Shown here: one piece after another, positions 35,398 to 50,511 of the stretch | Numbering within the stretch: position 1 is the first letter of the stretch | Layout: each line of letters opens with the position of its first letter | Source: Diplocarpon mali | Lineage: Eukaryota; Ascomycota; Leotiomycetes; Helotiales; Drepanopezizaceae | DNA: 64,000 nucleotides | Direction of reading: 5' to 3' | NCBI GenBank assembly: GCA_024741835.1 | Contig: JAENRP010000055.1 | Location: 134,011-198,010, forward strand | Position numbers and translations under genes: made by a program | The notes under the pieces: generated by a model | What the model was told of the DNA's origin: nothing | What the model saw: the letters and a program-made list of their open reading frames with translations, nothing else | The model's database searches: none

Positions 35398-37401
35398 TGA
35401 GGATCCAGCAGCGCTGGCCAGTGGTGATGGCTGCCCTGGGGGCTGCCAATGCATATACTGACGCGAGGGGAGATGGAATTGCACTTGAACCTGGGGCAGC
35501 AGAAGGAGGAGGAGAAGAGGTGCCGTTGCATCGGAGGGTGTTTGTGGCGGATTCTACAGAGGAGTTGGAGAGGAAGTGGGGCTTTGAGGTTTGTCTTCTC
35601 GTCTCTTCCTCTTCCTCTTCCTCTTTTCTCTTCTCTCTGTACGCTCTTTCTATCTCTCTGTCGGGCGTGTGTGCTGTATCTGTGTTATTTTTGTTCGTTT
35701 TTCACGTATTCTCTACTTCTTTTGTGGCTGCGATCTGGGCGGAAATGGGCCGTTTCTTGCCTTTGATCGACATGCACTTCACTCGTTCCTTGGAGGAAGA
35801 GGCGCTGGGTGCCCATCCCGCGGAAGCGTACAAGTGTACACCGTGTATTTGGTATGCCATGTGTAATGTTAAAGTAACTAAAGATAAGTTGTTTTTTACG
35901 ATGTTTGTGCTGCGAGGCGGAGCAATCTCTGAGCTAGGTAGTGCGCGAGTTGAAGCTGCTCTGTCTGCTAGATTGGAAATCAGATTTAGAGGTGCTTCCA
36001 TGTGACTGGTTCCACTCGTACATTCTACGTTCTGAAGGACCACCTTCACACGGCGAGTTCATTTCTTGGATCTTCAAAGTTACCTATCCTGTGGAATCCT
36101 AGCCAGATACTCGAGATGCAGGATGCGAGCAAGTGCTCCACGTCGTACCTGATGTGCTTATACAGCACCAATGCTTCCCTGAGCCGCTCATACATGTCAA
36201 GAACCACGCCTGCAGTCTGAGTGTAACACCGAGTAATGTTCTCATCACAGTGGGGCTTCAACGGCGTCAACTCGTTCGCACATCTCGAGCACGTAAAGTG
36301 TCTTACGAGACCAGAAAGGCCGTTCGACATAGCCATCGTTGGCGTACCGTTTGATACTGCCGTCAGCTATAGACCCGGTACGGTGGATGATGGATGCTGG
36401 CAGGCTGGTCCCGAGGGGATGGAGACAAGAGAGTAGGCTGACGAGAAATAGGAGCCCGCTTCGGCCCTCGTGCGATTCGCGCTGCCTCCTCCCGCCAGAC
36501 GTCCTTCCGCGGCTTCAACTCCCGGGCTTCCATGAATCCCTATACCTCCTGGGCCACGATCCTCGACTGCGGTGACATTCCCGTCACTCCGATGGACAAC
36601 GCCGTAGCCCTCGCGCAAATGACATCCGCCTACCTGGAGCTCGGGCACCGCGCTCCCCTCTCCTCTACGCTCTCTCACCCCAGGATCATCTCCCTCGGGG
36701 GCGACCACAGTCTCGCGCTCGCCGCCCTCCGCGGTCTTCACAACGTGTACGGCGGCCCAGTCGCCGTGCTGCATTTCGACGCCCACCTCGACACCTGGCA
36801 CCCCGCCAAGTACCCGAGTCCCTGGCCCAGCAAGCAGTCCGAGTTCAACCACGGCAGCATGTTCTGGATCGCCTCGAACGAAGGCCTCATCCGCAATGGG
36901 TCGTCTGTGCACGCCGGGTTGAGAACGCGACTGAGTGGGGATGACTGGGCTGATTACGAAGACGATACCCACCAAGGTTTCCTCCGCATCTCCTCGGACG
37001 ACCTGGACGACCTGGGCACCGCGGGTATCATCTCGGCCATCCTTGCCCGCATGGGCACCACCACGCCCGTCTACCTCTCGGTCGACATCGACGTGCTGGA
37101 CCCGGGCCTTGCGCCCGGAACCGGGACCCCCGAGGCCGGCGGCTGGACGAGCCGGGAGCTGATCAAGATCTTGCGGGGCATCGAGGGGCTGAACGTCGTC
37201 GGGGCGGATGTTGTGGAGGTTGCGCCGGCGTACGATGGCGCCGGGGAGCAGACGGCGCTGGCGGGCGCGCAGGTGGCGTACGAGATTCTGACGAGCGTCG
37301 TGAAGAGGGGGCTCGCAGACATGGGGAGGGCGAGTGAGGTGGCGATCAAGGATGGGACGGGGAGCAGGGGGACGGGGGAAAGGGTTCGAGATGAGTTGTG
37401 A
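35397..37401 (+). CDS. Agmatinase-like ureohydrolase with signal peptide and C-terminal RDEL
   Basis: Three exons (35397-35588, 36251-36377, 36452-37401) give 422 residues. Metal-binding motifs of the arginase/agmatinase fold are complete: GGDHS (about 188-193), FDAHLDTW (about 215-222) and SVDIDVLDPGLAPGTGTPE, so a binuclear manganese site is expected. Agmatinase hydrolyses agmatine to putrescine and urea, but related guanidino substrates are possible. Residues 1-19 (MRIQQRWPVVMAALGAANA) look like a signal peptide. The protein ends RVRDEL, resembling an ER-retrieval signal. The first intron is 662 bp, far longer than others here; it joins KWGFE to WGFNGVNSFAHLEH. That junction fits the family, but an extra exon inside it is possible. 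The second intron (74 bp) joins YRPG to ARFGPRAIR correctly. Confidence 0.85.
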
Positions 37402-37530
37402 TTTGGGGCGAAGGGAAAGGGTTAGAGATGAGTTGTGATTTGGGGCGAAGGGAAAGGGTTAGAGATGAGTTGTGATTTAGGGCGACGGGGGAAAGGTTAG
37501 AGATGAGTTGTGATTTGGGGCGACGAGCGG
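37384..37530 (+). repeat. 37-bp tandem repeat starting in the last codons of the ureohydrolase
   Basis: Four copies with periods of 37, 37 and 38 bp. The first begins at 37384 and includes the coding end and stop codon. Each copy contains GTTMGAGATGAGTTGTGA (M is C in the first, A in the others), which would encode Val-Arg-Asp-Glu-Leu-stop in the same relative frame. Confidence 0.9.
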
Positions 37531-38047
37531 AGCGCCGCAGTATTGAAATGGAAGAACCGGTTGTTACATGGGAATTGAATTTGGCACACAGTATGATGGG
37601 GGCTGCGCGGGCGGACTCGAGATGCGGCCATTGCCGACCGGCCACGAGACGCGAGAGTGACGAAGAGTATCTCCCGGACCTGGGCCGCCGCCGGTTCTCT
37701 ACACCTCTCGTTCCGCACCGAGACTCCTCGCTCCGGTGAGGCTCGGAACGAATCACGATGGAGCATTCCTCCCCGCTCATCCACGACCAGCACGGATAGA
37801 GATGTATATAAATCAATATCAATATCAATATCTACCTATCTACATATCTACCTAACTACCTACCCACCTACCCAGGTATATATCTCACCCCTAGCGCAGC
37901 CACCCTACCACGTGACCCATCCCAGCCCAGCCCAAGCCTTCTCGCTTCGCCGTCCCCACCACGCCCGGCCCGCATCGAATCCCGATCCCACGTCGAGCCT
38001 GCGCAGACATAAATGCTTATTTCACCTCCTGACACCACACACTTCCA

Positions 38048-38199
38048 CCCTCGGTCGTCTAGTTGGTTTATGGCGTCCGGCTGTAATGGTACAGTCTCAC
38101 CGGAATGTCGCGCGTACGTGGCCCGCCCTTCTTCTCCATGAAGAGTTTCTCTCAGACGGCTGCTAACAGCTGTACCAGGTTCGACTCGCGCCTGAGGGA
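38048..38199 (+). tRNA. tRNA-Tyr(GUA) with anticodon-loop intron and a second insert in the T arm
   Basis: The cloverleaf can be assigned base by base. The acceptor stem CCCTCGG (38048-38054) pairs with CTGAGGG (38192-38198), with discriminator A at 38199; C1-G72 is the pair eukaryotic tRNA-Tyr uses. The anticodon stem TCCGG (38076-38080) pairs with CCGGA (38100-38104), and the loop is CTGTAA + A, anticodon GTA at 38083-38085. A 12-bp intron (38087-38098) follows position 37 and holds TACAG, complementary to CTGTA of the loop, as usual for tRNA-Tyr introns. The T stem GCGCG (38110-38114) pairs perfectly with CGCGC (38187-38191) only if 38114/38115-38178/38179 is removed, leaving loop TTCGACT. 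Removal of both inserts gives 75 nt. A- and B-box-like promoters (GTCTAGTTGG; GGTTCGACTC) are present and a T run follows. Confidence 0.85.
38114..38178 (+). other. 65-bp spliceosomal-type intron inside the tRNA-Tyr T arm
   Basis: Begins GTACGT, contains CTAAC (38163-38167) with the branch A 12 bases before the end, and ends TACCAG. Length and all three signals equal those of mRNA introns in this window. Exact excision restores five T-stem pairs and the TTCGACT loop. The boundary can shift by one base because G flanks both sides. Confidence 0.75.
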
Positions 38200-38205
38200 A
38201 CATTG

Positions 38206-38211
38206 TTTTTT
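38206..38211 (+). terminator. RNA polymerase III terminator of tRNA-Tyr
   Basis: Six T residues begin 7 bases after the tRNA discriminator, followed shortly by TTTT at 38215-38218. This is the normal pol III stop signal on the non-template strand. Confidence 0.7.
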
Positions 38212-39049
38212 ATTCTTTTCTTTTCGGCTGGGTTGTTTAGGGTTTTCGTTCGGTGTGTGTGCTGCGCCAGGGACGGCGTCTCGGGGGTTTGGGGCGGCAG
38301 GGAGGGGGTTGGTCTTTGATGGTTCCCGGGTTTCCTTCTTTTGCTCTGCTTTTGCTCTGTTTTTGTCTGTTTTTCTCCTATTTTCTTTTTTCTGTTTCTT
38401 TTTTCCGCAGAGGCGCTTTGCCGCTTAGCGGCTGGAGTTGCGAGGGTCCGCAGCGCAAACTCCGAGCAGACTTGACGTCTTGGCGACCTGAATTGAATTC
38501 CTTGTCTACGCCGTCGCGACCCGGCCTGTCGATTCACCAGCCAGCGGGTGTGTTCTTTGATACTTGGCTATATCCCCCATCCTTTGCTCTTTTCCTTTGC
38601 TTTCTCGGGCCATCTGATGTTCCCCGGTCGAGCAGCGCTGCACTTCATTCAATTCCGGCAGCCTGGGGGATAAACACCTAGGAAATCAATGGTAGACTGG
38701 AGGCTGCTAGTGGGAGATCCCAGCAGCTCCCAGATGTGCACACACACACACACACCTACAGGTTCAGGTTTCAAAGCTTTCCTGGTTTTGGTACATCCAC
38801 AGTAGGAGAGGCGTGAAGCCGCGGCTCCCTCTGCTTCAGAATCCGCATCGTAAATTGTCGTCATGGTGAGAACCTCGCTATTACAGGGCAGACAGAGCGA
38901 CACCACATCTCCGAGGTCCAGACCATCTAAGCTCAAATCCCTCCCGTCCCGACCTCGTCCCCGCAACGCCTCCCTCCCGTCTCTTCCCTCCCTTCTCCCG
39001 GAAGCGAAACGCAGCCGAGCTGCTCGTACCAAAGACACAAAGCTCCGCT
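38212..39049. other. Intergenic, no supported gene
   Basis: Between the tRNA-Tyr and the 3' end of the DNA ligase gene. T-rich TTTTGCTCTG repeats lie at 38340-38400 and a CA run at 38740-38755. Open frames on both strands lack recognisable features. Confidence 0.5.
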
Positions 39050-42016
39050 CTAATACTCAAAATCATCATCCACAGCCGGTCCTTTGCTCTTCGTCACACT
39101 CTCCTGTTTGCGATACATCTCAACCACCTGCCGACTCCCCGTCGCCTCATCCGGCTTCTTATCGTCCCTGACCTTGATAAACCTCGGAAATCTCAGGCTG
39201 ATCCCCTTCTCCCCGCCCCCATCCAGTCCCTCCCTCCATCCGGCCTTGTACCTAGGACTGAGCGTCAAGTCAGCCGTCTTGACCTCCCATACGTACTTCG
39301 GCTCGAACCAGACGTCGGGCTGGTGTGTGTTGCCGGTCGAGTGCGAGTAGAAGGGCTTGGGCCGGTCGATGATCAGGGGGGAGAGCTCGGCGTGGAGGGT
39401 TTCGAGGACGGCCTCGGAGAATCCGGTGCCGATATTGCAGATGGTTTCGTAGCTCTCCGAGGTACGGTTGAAGCAGGCGAGGAGGAAGGCACCGTAGACC
39501 GATGTTCGTTTCCCTTTGCCGTGGTAGGCGCCCAAGACGACGAGGTCGAGTGAGTCGCCGATGCCAGAGAGGTAGTCTTTTTTGATCTGCATCATTTTAG
39601 CTTGTGGACTGGGCCAGGCGCTGGTTCAGGCTGGGTGCCACGTACCTTGAGCCAGTTCCTACTGCGTTTGCTGGGCTCGTAGCCGCTCTCTGCACCGTCC
39701 AGCATCTTGACCATGAGGCCTTCACAGGAAGCTTTCATGCTCTCGTCGAGGAAGGTTTGGATTTCTTCGATCTCTTGCCCGTCCATGCTGCTCGCAAACG
39801 CGAATTCTCCCTCCACAGGCACGCAGGATCCGTGGAGAAGCTCGCGACGCTCACGGAGAGATCTGCCAACCACGGCCTCACCGTTCAAGAAGAGAAGATC
39901 AAATGCAAACACGCAAACCTTGACTTTCACGTCTTCAATCTTGACGTCCTTCTTCTTGCGGGTCATCAGTTGTTGGAAAGGGAGGACCTTCTTCTCGACC
40001 ATGTCCCAGGCCACAGTCTCACAGTCCATGACAAAGCTCTTTGTGTGTGGCTTTACCCAAGTATTGAGCTTAGCGAGGATATCCGGGTACTTCTTGGAAA
40101 GATCCTCGGAGTTGCGCGAGAAGATAGCGGCCAATCCCCCGTGTGCTGTTTTGGTCACAGCTTCGGCTGGGCCGCGATACTGATGCGGAGAGTCCTTGGC
40201 GACGTAGTGGATTTGAGCTCTCTCACCATCGTACTTGTATTCACAAGTAAAGGTTTGATTCTCGAAGCGGTCGAGCACTTCTGTGATGGCTTTCGTGGGC
40301 TTTGCCAACATGGGCTTCAGGGGCACACCTGGTTGAAGCTTGCACTTATCACGAAGGTTGAAGATACCATGCTCCAACATTGCTGGGATAATGACATCAT
40401 AACTGGGGAGTTCACTGCGAGGGTCAGCACGGGTGAGGCCATCGAATTTGAGATTTCACCTGTGAACGGCTTTGAGAACCGACTCTCCTTTGGCCAATTG
40501 CTCTGTGCTTGGGAACATGTCGGATCCTTTGGCTTCGGTCTCGTGGCATACCATAGCTTGGGCAAGCGACACAAGCACAGTCTTCTCAGCAAGACCAAGG
40601 CGTAGCTTTCCCTCGAGAAATCGTACAATGAACTTTGCCTCACTCGCTCCACCCTTATCCTTGGTGATGTCAACTTTCCCAGACTTCGAAACATCAGCTG
40701 CGGCGAGTAACTTTCCGATCAGGTCAACCTTTCGACCCTGAGCTCCATTGCCCGAAGTAGTCGCAACATCCATCAGACCTTTATGGACAGCTCGGACTGT
40801 CAACGGCTTCGGCTTGAACATAACTGGCTGATTTGCTCTGCTTTTGACTGCAACCAAACCTAAATCGCCAATCTCTCTCTGATCTTGCTTGATCTGTGCC
40901 AGATTGCGCCCCGTAGTGGCGCCAATAGCTTTCATGATCAGTGATTCGCCGATGCCAAGCTCAATCCCAGCATAATCGGCAGCCAGTTTGTTGATCATGA
41001 GAAGGACGGTTGGCAGCATGTCATCGGGGGTCAATCTGAGCACTTGTCGGAGGAACAGAGAGCAGTGTGCGGCTATGATCAACCGCTTGGAAGTCATCTC
41101 AATCAGAGAGAAAGTCGTGCAGAGCGCCGCATATGGCACTGGCTCTCCCGGCTTCCAGTCTGGATATGGATCCTTCGTCTTGGCCTTCAGTGTAGTCTGG
41201 ATCTTTTCACGGGCCTTTGCTGCAACCTCTGGCTTCTCATCTTCCTCGTCATCTTCCTCGATTTCCGAGGCTGATGATGCATCGGAAGCTCTCCTCTTCG
41301 TAGGAGAGCTAACTTCTTCGACTTCTTCATCCTTGTCTTCCACCTCCTGGGCCGCCTCTTTGGATTTCTTGTGTGGTAGAGGCATGCTCTTTTTCGAAGT
41401 TGCCTTTCCATTTGTTTTGCTCCTGGGCTCTGCTTTTGAACTGATCGACGCCGGCTCGTCATCCACCTCAGCTTTGATCATGCGGCGAGGTCGCTTTAGA
41501 ATCGGCTCGTCGTCATCTTCCTCCTCAATAACCTCTTTTTTGAATGTCTTTCTGTTATCCGATTTGGTCTCTACCGGGGAAAAGGATCTTGATCGCTTCC
41601 TCGTCTCTGTTGACTCCAGGTCAGCAGTAGCACTCTTAGCGAAGCAACTGCCACGTACCATTTATAGGCTTTACACTTTCTCTTGCATCTGCTGCCGGCT
41701 CTGCCTTGATTTTCTTGTTGGCCTCTTCGACGACTTTAGGCTTGAATCCCACAGTATATGCGTCATCTTCATCCTTCATTTCGGTATTCCCGTTCTCCTT
41801 CGCTGCGCTAGAACTTGGAGGGGTGCTTGTAGCTCTGCTACCAAAAGCGAGCTTGGACTGCTTCGACGGCGCCTTAGTACCATTGGGATTCCCAAAAAAC
41901 TTCCTGTTCAGCAAATATATCAGCAAGATTCCATAGCAATACAACGTTCTCACACACCCCAAGGTAGTCTGGGAATCTCGAACATACCCCAGCGTTGACT
42001 GCTTGGGAGGCATCAT
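39050..42016 (-). CDS. CDC9: ATP-dependent DNA ligase I (Cdc9/LIG1)
   Basis: Five exons (42016-41988, 41903-41659, 41606-40460, 40414-39646, 39586-39050) give 908 residues. It seals nicks between Okazaki fragments and in repair. Residues 7-14 are QSTLGKFF, a PCNA-interacting peptide (Q-x2-L-x2-FF), built across the first splice. A long Lys/Glu-rich disordered region follows, then the DNA-binding domain, then the adenylation site EYKYDGERAQIH with the AMP-accepting lysine near 534, and later motifs including FAFDLLFLNGE, CEGLMVKML and the NWLKIKKDYL join. The C-terminal OB-fold is present (LVVLGAYHGKGKR; FPRFIKVRDDK). Two ATGs are adjacent (42016 and 42013). The frame stays open upstream without an ATG. 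It is transcribed divergently from asparaginyl-tRNA synthetase, with MluI-type boxes between them. Confidence 0.95.
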
Positions 42017-48021: not shown

Positions 48022-50511
48022 ATGCAGGAGATACAGACATCAACGCCCCAGGGGGGGGCGGGCACTGCGGCTGCCAGCAGGATCTCCGGACACGCTTCGA
48101 AGCCTTCGAACAGCGAGACGGGCTTCTCTCACGGCGCCTACAGCTCCAACCAGGTCTCGATGGGTGGGTACGGGGACAGACACCCGCGCCGGGTGAACAT
48201 TCCTTCGATCAACACCCAGCCGACGGATCGACAAGCACACAGTGATCTGGTGACCCCCGGCACCGCCTTCGATATGCAGTTCACCCCCTTGCTTCCCTCC
48301 CAGCTCCTCCTCGGGTCTCCGTTCCAGACCGGCTCGCCGGCCGCCTACCCTCAGTTCCACAACTACGCCGCGTTCCAGCAGCCGCACCAGCAGCAGGCGC
48401 AGCAGCAGAACGCGGCCCCCCTCTCCCCTCCCCTCTACCAGACCCTCGTCTCTCCGTCGACCTATGGGGCACCTCAGTTCTACAACCCCCAATCGCCCAC
48501 CGGGAATGGCTTCGCGAACCTGAACAGCCAGATGAGCCAGATGCAGATCCAGCCCTCGTCTCCCGTACAGATGTCCCCGGGGCTGGTTTCGGGCACCAGC
48601 CGGACCGTGTACCTGGGCAACATCCCCCCGGAGACATCCGCGGAGGAGATCCTGGGGCACGTGCGAAGCGGGCAGATCGAGTCGGTCCGGCTCCTGCCCG
48701 ACAAGAACTGCGCTTTCATCTCCTTCCTGGATGGGAGCTCTGCCACCCATTTCCACTCGGATGCCATCTTGAAGAAGCTTTCGATCCGTGGCCAGGACAT
48801 CAAGGTGGGGTGGGGGAAGCCCTCGCAGGTGCCGACGTCGGTCGCCCTGGCCGTCCAGCAGTCCGGTGCCTCCCGGAACGTGTACCTGGGAAACCTCGAG
48901 GAGACGGTCACCGAGGATGAGCTCCGGGAGGACCTGAGCAAGTTTGGGCCCATCGACACGGTCAAGATTGTCCGTGAAAAGGCAATCGGCTTCGTCCACT
49001 TCCTGTCTATCGGCAACGCGATCAAGGCGGTTGCCCAGCTTCCCCAGGAGCCCAAGTGGCAGGCCCCCCGACGGGTGTACTATGGCAAGGATCGTTGCGC
49101 CTACGTTTCCAAGACCCAGCAGCAGAACGCGGCTCAGTACCTCGGCATCGCCCCGGGATACGCGCACGTGCTGAATGGCGCGGACCGTGATCTGATTTCC
49201 AACGCTCTGGCGCAGCAGTCCGTTGCGGCGGCGGCGGTGGCTACCACGGCCGGAGGCATCAACAACCTCGGCAACCGCACGGTCTACCTCGGAAACATCC
49301 ACCCCGAGACCACCATCGAAGAGATTTGCAACGTGGTCCGGGGTGGACTGCTGCATCACATCCGATACATACCCGACAAGCACATCTGCTTCGTCACGTT
49401 CATCGACCCTACCTCTGCCGCTTCCTTCTACGCTCTGAGCAACATGCAGGGTCTGATGATCCACAACCGGAGACTGAAGATCGGGTGGGGGAAGCACTCG
49501 GGCGCGCTCCCAGCGGCTATCGCTCTGGCTGTCAGCGGTGGGGCGTCGCGCAACGTCTACGTGGGAAACCTGGACGAAACCTGGACCGAGGAGAGGCTGA
49601 GGCAGGACTTTTCCGAGTACGGTGAGATCGAGCTCGTCAACACTCTCCGCGAGAAGAGCTGTGCGTTTGTCAATTTTACCAACATTGCCAACGCCATCAA
49701 GGCGATTGAAGCTGTCCGGGGCAAGGATGATTACCGCAGGTTCAAGGTCAACTTTGGCAAGGATCGTTGTGGAAACCCTCCTCGTCAAGTGCAGCAGCAG
49801 CAGCAGCAACATCAGCAGCATCAGCAGCATCAGCAGAATGCCCAGTCCCCCCGCAACGACGGGGTGAACTCGCCTCCCCCAAACAGCGGGGGTCTTCAAC
49901 CCAGCCAGAACGGAAGCTCGCCAACCCACTCCCACACTCCCGGCTCGATCAACGGCAGTCAGGGGTTCCCGCAGCCGGCTCCGACCCCGTCAACCATCCT
50001 CAACGCTGGCAGCAACAACCCGCTTACGATGTACCTCAATCAAGTCTCTCAACAAGCACAGCAGCAGCAGCAGCAACTCGACCCCTACTCCGTCGCTCAG
50101 CTCCACCAGCAGCAGCAGCAAGTTCTCCAGGCTCAACAAGCCGCCCTCTATGGCAACGGCTCCCAGGACATCGATGCGCTAGACGTACAGCAGCAGGCCA
50201 TGGGTCACCAACCGTCCGCCAGCATCAACGGTTTCCAGACGGGATCTTCCGCGGCCCCTACGATGAACGGACTGTTGGCGCCTGCTCGTAGCCAGCACAA
50301 CCGCGCCGTCAGCTTACCGGTCTTCGCTCAGCAGATCCAAGAGAACGGCCTGCAGAACGGCGACCAGCAGAGACGCGGCCACCAATATCAAAGCTCGTTC
50401 TCGGGTCTCGGCAACGGTACCTACGCGAACGGCTACGGGCTTACGATCCAAGACAACTCGGGGATGAACGGGCTCAACGGATGGGTCGAGGAGGAGGTCG
50501 TCGGTAACTGA
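48022..50511 (+). CDS. nrd1: Four-RRM RNA-binding protein, Nrd1/Msa2-type
   Basis: Single exon of 829 residues starting at the first in-frame ATG (MQEIQTSTPQGG); the upstream open frame lacks an ATG. After a disordered, Gln/Pro-rich N-terminus come four RNA-recognition motifs at about 194-268 (TVYLGNIPPETSAEE), 284-355 (NVYLGNLEETVTEDE), 418-490 (TVYLGNIHPETTIEE) and 508-580 (NVYVGNLDETWTEER), each followed by VGWGK- or YYGKDRC-like ends. The tail is rich in Gln (about 587-612 and 675-725) and disordered. The RRM arrangement matches fission yeast Nrd1/Msa2, which binds U/C-rich mRNAs and delays sexual differentiation, and its uncharacterised filamentous-fungal relatives. A cytoplasmic mRNA-binding, stress-granule-type role is inferred. 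Very strong codon bias toward G/C ends suggests good expression. A 631-codon antisense frame is a shadow. Confidence 0.9.
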   Translation: MQEIQTSTPQGGAGTAAASRISGHASKPSNSETGFSHGAYSSNQVSMGGYGDRHPRRVNIPSINTQPTDRQAHSDLVTPGTAFDMQFTPLLPSQLLLGSPFQTGSPAAYPQFHNYAAFQQPHQQQAQQQNAAPLSPPLYQTLVSPSTYGAPQFYNPQSPTGNGFANLNSQMSQMQIQPSSPVQMSPGLVSGTSRTVYLGNIPPETSAEEILGHVRSGQIESVRLLPDKNCAFISFLDGSSATHFHSDAILKKLSIRGQDIKVGWGKPSQVPTSVALAVQQSGASRNVYLGNLEETVTEDELREDLSKFGPIDTVKIVREKAIGFVHFLSIGNAIKAVAQLPQEPKWQAPRRVYYGKDRCAYVSKTQQQNAAQYLGIAPGYAHVLNGADRDLISNALAQQSVAAAAVATTAGGINNLGNRTVYLGNIHPETTIEEICNVVRGGLLHHIRYIPDKHICFVTFIDPTSAASFYALSNMQGLMIHNRRLKIGWGKHSGALPAAIALAVSGGASRNVYVGNLDETWTEERLRQDFSEYGEIELVNTLREKSCAFVNFTNIANAIKAIEAVRGKDDYRRFKVNFGKDRCGNPPRQVQQQQQQHQQHQQHQQNAQSPRNDGVNSPPPNSGGLQPSQNGSSPTHSHTPGSINGSQGFPQPAPTPSTILNAGSNNPLTMYLNQVSQQAQQQQQQLDPYSVAQLHQQQQQVLQAQQAALYGNGSQDIDALDVQQQAMGHQPSASINGFQTGSSAAPTMNGLLAPARSQHNRAVSLPVFAQQIQENGLQNGDQQRRGHQYQSSFSGLGNGTYANGYGLTIQDNSGMNGLNGWVEEEVVGN

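Follow-up and report, generated by a model that had tools for sequence, protein, structure and literature searches.

Can a nuclear tRNA gene be interrupted by an intron of the kind that is removed from mRNA? This question is raised by a tRNA-Tyr(GUA) gene of the apple-leaf fungus Diplocarpon mali, whose genus belongs to the Drepanopezizaceae (Leotiomycetes, Helotiales) in the NCBI taxonomy. The gene lies in the 64,000-nt stretch of DNA analysed here (the window), the end of a 198,010-base contig in a draft assembly of 49.4 Mb and 676 contigs. Among its protein-coding genes, that for AsnRS matches D. mali JHW43_003726, and the RRM protein encoded at 48022-50508 shares 99% identity with a D. coronariae protein. 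Judged from sequence, the 65-nt insert in its T arm is in all likelihood a U2-type spliceosomal intron, one of at least 19 in the tRNA genes of this assembly. A preliminary description of the locus had favored a spliceosomal-type T-arm intron, and this is the best-supported reading, given three Tyr loci, the splice consensus, and a second fungus.

The interrupted tRNA-Tyr gene

ARAGORN called no tRNA on the 64-kb window or on the interrupted gene as it stands, and an Rfam scan of 36000-40000 (E up to 1) gave no tRNA match. Once the 65-nt insert was deleted, ARAGORN called tRNA-Tyr(gta) with five T-stem pairs. The gene had been described beforehand as an interrupted tRNA-Tyr carrying a 12-nt anticodon intron after position 37, with a T stem restored in all five pairs by removal of the second insert, and each of these observations is confirmed (Table 1). 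The donor, branch, and acceptor motifs proposed for the insert are likewise in place, the branch A lying 12 nt before its last base. Its size and T-arm location also stand, but not the site, which had been put at 53/54; the GT-AG reading moves it to 52/53, leaving G53 in the 3' exon. Among 4452 deletions tried on the window gene, the GT-AG product had the top score, and three shifted deletions yield one identical product. Because the final base of the intron is G, the B box remains unbroken. The predicted spliced junction at the Tyr loci is GTCGCGC joined to GTTCGACT. A local direct repeat upstream of the gene, at 37369-37500, shows up as two tandem weak Rfam matches (E 0.13 and 0.28, under the gathering score) to a model of a human lncRNA.

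Table 1. Coordinates of the tRNA-Tyr gene and related loci; positions are those of the window unless a contig or locus is named.
Feature	Position	Strand	Basis or remark
tRNA-Tyr(GUA) gene, whole (copy a, contig C55)	38048-38199	+	sequence reading
Exon 1, tRNA positions 1-37; A box inside, ~38055-38066	38048-38086	+	box by eye
Canonical anticodon-loop intron, 12 nt, 3' of position 37	38087-38098	+	ARAGORN, deletion scoring
Exon 2, tRNA positions 38-52	38099-38113	+	ARAGORN fold after insert removal
Putative spliceosomal-type T-arm intron, 65 nt, at 52/53	38114-38178	+	sequence, deletion scoring
Donor GTACGT of the 65-nt insert	38114-38119	+	
Branch CTAAC of the 65-nt insert, A at 38166	38163-38167	+	
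Acceptor CCAG of the 65-nt insert	38175-38178	+	
Exon 3, tRNA positions 53-73	38179-38199	+	sequence, ARAGORN
B box GGTTCGACTCG	38178-38188	+	spans the intron's last base and exon 3
Six-T run, likely pol III terminator	38206-38211	+	sequence
Tyr copy b (L047), insert of 80 nt: GTCAGT, CTCAC, GCAG	G000:C52:149388-149456		
Tyr copy c, insert of 59 nt: GTACGT, CTGAT, ATAG	contig C36		
U6 snRNA gene, insert of 51 nt	L098 1501-1653; G000:C67:136807-136959		

The tRNA-Tyr family

A whole-genome DNA search found three tRNA-Tyr loci, all of which carry a diverged GT-AG insert at the same site, and no intact tRNA-Tyr locus was found in the assembly. The count of tRNA-Tyr genes, recommended in the preliminary description, thus speaks against its alternative of a recent insertion that killed one copy, which fails for a family in which all three loci found are interrupted. 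A search for an uninterrupted Tyr T arm with up to three mismatches returned four matches, one being the interrupted arm of copy c; the remaining three, read by eye, lack TTCRA. The Tyr anticodon arm, searched with a loose pattern, matched 55 times, compared with 74 for a reversed control pattern. Further copies of the insert had also been suggested as worth looking for; the 65-nt sequence, the one insert of the 19 used as a query against the genome, found no second match, which argues against its belonging to an introner family.

Anticodon-stem pairs 29-41 and 31-39 covary between the Tyr copies with pairing kept, and removal of the insert gives five T-stem pairs in copies a and c, but not in copy b. 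The latter has a weak donor, GTCAGT, and is left with an A53xC61 mismatch after removal; from its sequence, copy b looks decayed.

The same insert in a second fungus

Prokaryote genome contigs were scanned with the first 21 bases of the Tyr gene, which led to a match in NYXK01000105.1, a contig labelled as part of a deltaproteobacterial metagenome-assembled genome (MAG); viral contigs, searched with three patterns, gave no match. The contig holds a eukaryotic tRNA-Tyr gene that has an anticodon intron and, at 52/53, a 92-nt insert, whose donor is GTAAGT and whose 3' end is close to those of D. mali Tyr copies a and b. Nearby, an amidase fragment shows 76% identity over 171 aa to the amidase beside D. 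mali copy b. Given the similar tRNA-Tyr and the amidase neighbor, it is very likely that the two are orthologues at a syntenic locus and that the contig is a fungal contaminant. The orthologue has a GTAAGT donor and G53, and so neither fault of copy b. The comparison with related species that had been proposed therefore finds a Tyr insert at 52/53 in a further fungus, whose assembly is independent. As a public record, the MAG labelled Deltaproteobacteria is contaminated, with ~1 Mb of fungal DNA on long contigs.

An insert-aware scan of 954 kb of this fungal DNA recovered uninterrupted genes for Met, Lys (2), Pro, and Ser, along with Tyr and its insert, and gave no spurious GT-AG tRNA; the scanner is incomplete, having missed Tyr b, both Gln, and Ala among the D. 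mali loci, as well as an Arg gene detected by RF00005.

Splice signals and borders of the inserts

The 19 inserts in D. mali tRNA genes are 47-80 nt long. The donor GTNNGT is present in 16 and a YAG acceptor in 18; a CTVAY branch whose A lies 9-15 nt before the end is likewise seen in 18. All three occur together in 15/19 inserts versus 25 of 20,000 random GT-AG segments of like length. This test is not wholly independent, because GT-AG helped to set the borders; the branch and donor positions +5 and +6, however, played no part in this. One consensus element is missed or bent in each of the Tyr b, Met a, Met b, Gly c, and Ala inserts. In protein-coding genes, the neighboring AsnRS and DNA-ligase genes have three introns of 47, 52, and 59 nt with donors GTAAGT, GTACGT, and GTACGT, picked by GT-AG and reading frame, one of them without a branch match in the scan. 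The consensus of fungal U3 introns, which are taken as spliceosomal in PMC5832005, is equal to that of the D. mali tRNA inserts.

The borders were examined in two further ways. Against paralogues, the GT-AG deletion was among the best in all nine D-arm cases, where ~2100-2250 deletions were tried per case and GT-AG made up 0.6-1.5% of those. The references were uninterrupted genes of the same genome, except for two Gly cases that were compared with the product of another interrupted gene, and Leu-UAG and Lys-UUU were set against a different isoacceptor. By cloverleaf score alone, the chosen GT-AG product ranked first or tied first in 9/17, the exceptions being Tyr b, Met a, both Leu, both Gln, His b, and Ala.

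Avoidance of TTTT within the inserts was also considered and dropped: TTTT occurs in none of the 19, but a shuffle test on 17 was not significant (P = 0.077), and the Tyr insert of the second fungus contains TTTT.

Chance as the origin of the intron-like insert is excluded, because there are two more Tyr copies with diverged inserts at the same site and one in another fungus, and because of the consensus test over 19 inserts.

Elongator tRNA-Met and the wider tRNA set

Elongator tRNA-Met is represented by two loci in the whole-genome DNA search, both interrupted, and no intact elongator-Met locus was found in the assembly. The insert lies in the variable loop in copy a and inside the T loop in copy b. 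Acceptor pair 7-66 is A-U in one copy and U-A in the other, and both have five T-stem pairs after insert removal.

At least 19 tRNA genes of the assembly, out of 72 counted, have a GT-AG insert, which is placed in the D arm, the variable loop, or the T arm. These 72 comprise 45 RF00005 matches (one of them interrupted, Met a), three Tyr, Met b, and 23 from B-box candidates; RF00005 scored 63 of 2443 candidates, and the total is to be read as a minimum. L025, counted among the 72, may be a mitochondrial gene. From a larger number of T-arm (B-box) pattern matches, 42 stretches were examined, 23 being counted as tRNA and 19 not; L114 was counted as an uninterrupted Ile, and the uncounted stretches include L095 as well as L116 and L117, which had an ARAGORN check only. 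Fourteen of the 23 B-box-derived genes are interrupted: Leu-CAG, Leu-UAG, Glu-UUC, Gly-GCC (3), Gly-CCC, Gln-CUG (2), His (2), Ala-AGC, Lys-UUU, and Val-CAC. The whole-genome DNA search for further copies covered Tyr and Met only. Insert sites range from 8/9 to 55/56, all outside the anticodon loop; in Gly-GCC c and Lys-UUU the 5' exon measures just 8 nt besides the leader. Shortly downstream of the 3' end of Ala L023, L024, and L093 and of His L079 and L105, a further element resembling a T-arm B box, GGTTCRANTCC, was seen. For strain NL1, 136 tRNA genes have been reported (PMC7864672).

These counts bear on the possibility that the interrupted genes are dead or dying and that intact copies elsewhere supply the tRNAs. 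Such is the usual view of D- and T-arm insertions, as put in an excerpt of PMC4090602, and the decay in Tyr b agrees with it. Uninterrupted copies are present for Glu-UUC, Ala-AGC, Leu-CAG, Gln-CUG, and Gly-CCC, and single interrupted copies of those could therefore be dead. As a general account it is nevertheless very unlikely, since it is opposed by the lack of an intact Tyr or elongator-Met locus among those found in the assembly, by stem bases that change in pairs and cloverleaves that are regained even though the copies have diverged, and by the retention of the Tyr insert in the second fungus.

Promoter and terminator elements

T runs were found downstream of all 17 interrupted genes checked; the distance is at most 24 nt in 14 of them and 54-71 nt in Ala and the two His genes. 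By eye, the A and B boxes are both whole in Tyr and Met a; D-arm inserts interrupt the A box, and the Met b insert the B box. A split A or B box should weaken transcription by RNA polymerase III. Among the genes tested, 8 of 19 interrupted and 27 of 42 uninterrupted have a TATA-like box upstream, as against 215 of 3000 random stretches (binomial 2.6e-5 for 8/19). Such boxes fit pol III genes with upstream TATA elements, and for this reason the genes with a split A box may still be transcribed.

Relation to known introns

An mRNA-type intron is known in the U6 snRNA gene of fission yeast, and the D. mali U6 gene is itself interrupted by a 51-nt GT-AG insert, which follows AGCATGGC and has the signals GTGAGT, CTAAT, and CCAG. 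This locus was the sole RF00026 match among 47 scored of 3126 candidates. Like the D. mali inserts, introns of fungal U6 snRNA and U3 snoRNA genes are of mRNA type and interrupt genes for short non-coding RNAs, of which U6 is transcribed by pol III; for U3 the donor, branch, and acceptor consensus is the same and the branch distance similar (PMC5832005, excerpt). The hosts differ, being snRNA and snoRNA there and tRNA in D. mali.

Genes outside pol II transcription are also host to mRNA-type introns in fungal nuclear rRNA, including that of lichens, although these are pol I transcripts rather than tRNAs; for the 18S rDNA of deuteromycetes, a 1993 study is cited in PMC11782384. Searches of open-access full text turned up no account of a spliceosomal intron in a nuclear tRNA gene. 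The introns are of a known kind, and tRNA is a host class for which those searches yielded no report of them.

Non-canonical tRNA introns of another sort, situated in the D and T arms, occur in archaea, nucleomorphs, and the red alga Cyanidioschyzon merolae, where some genes have a second intron at the canonical site (PMC4090602, excerpt), as does the gene of the window. According to the same excerpt, those of Cyanidioschyzon are attributed to the tRNA endonuclease with bulge-helix-bulge (BHB) motifs, and those of the Guillardia nucleomorph measure 3-24 nt. The D. mali inserts differ in their 47-80 nt, GT-AG borders, branch site, and lack of BHB enrichment. That the inserts are introns of this sort, cut by the tRNA splicing endonuclease, is very unlikely. 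The precedent in some eukaryotes is real (PMC4090602, excerpt), the His a insert has a full 4-bp central helix, and the two ends of the window insert can pair (GTAC/GTAC), which had been put forward as a means of bringing them together. That pairing, however, is absent from Tyr copies b and c, and there is no BHB enrichment in 17 inserts (Lys and Val lying outside the test), with four of four central pairs in His a alone and control fractions of 0.05-0.80; such introns would not be expected to show GT-AG, branch, and acceptor signals, and U6 carries the same type of insert. The suggestion is thus unsupported.

An assembly artefact or self-splicing introns can be set aside as scarcely credible: the assembly is a draft of many contigs, yet there are nineteen loci with mostly unlike inserts and the same Tyr insert in an independent assembly of another fungus, while Rfam gave no group I or II match in 36000-40000 (E up to 1) and at 47-80 nt the inserts fall below the size of group I and II introns.

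Expression and biological meaning

The argument for spliceosomal introns is drawn from insert anatomy, genomic recurrence, presence in a second fungus, and a regular cloverleaf after removal. On this reading, RNA polymerase III would transcribe the interrupted tRNA-Tyr gene, the spliceosome would remove the T-arm intron, presumably before folding and end processing, and tRNA endonuclease and ligase would remove the 12-nt anticodon intron; RNase P, RNase Z, and CCA addition would complete the tRNA, and the tRNAs of interrupted genes would be put to use. The sequences suggest, then, that working tRNAs of D. mali need the mRNA-splicing machinery.

Since all Tyr and elongator-Met loci found are interrupted, dependence on the spliceosome is hard to avoid, unless intact copies are held in the extra 1-2 Mb of related assemblies, which are larger, at 50.3 and 51.5 Mb (PMC7864672 and PMC11527701, excerpts); the draft may lack such copies. 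Probably, cytosolic translation in Diplocarpon is directly spliceosome-dependent, through every precursor of tRNA-Tyr and elongator tRNA-Met, and the tRNA genes of its lineage gained spliceosomal introns many times at different places, the Tyr one at a stage so early that another fungus has it too, with the result that standard finders miss a good part of the tRNA set in genomes of this sort. Low tRNA counts have been reported for some helotialean fungi, 51 in Hyaloscypha hepaticicola and 50 in Gamarada debralockiae (PMC11678538, excerpt), and interrupted genes missed by tRNAscan-SE could be one cause of such counts of about 50. If true, the finding would expose a blind spot in tRNA annotation and provide a system for the splicing of very short pol III transcripts. 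It would also offer a natural set of essential tRNAs dependent on the spliceosome, in a fungus whose translation would be tied to spliceosome function.
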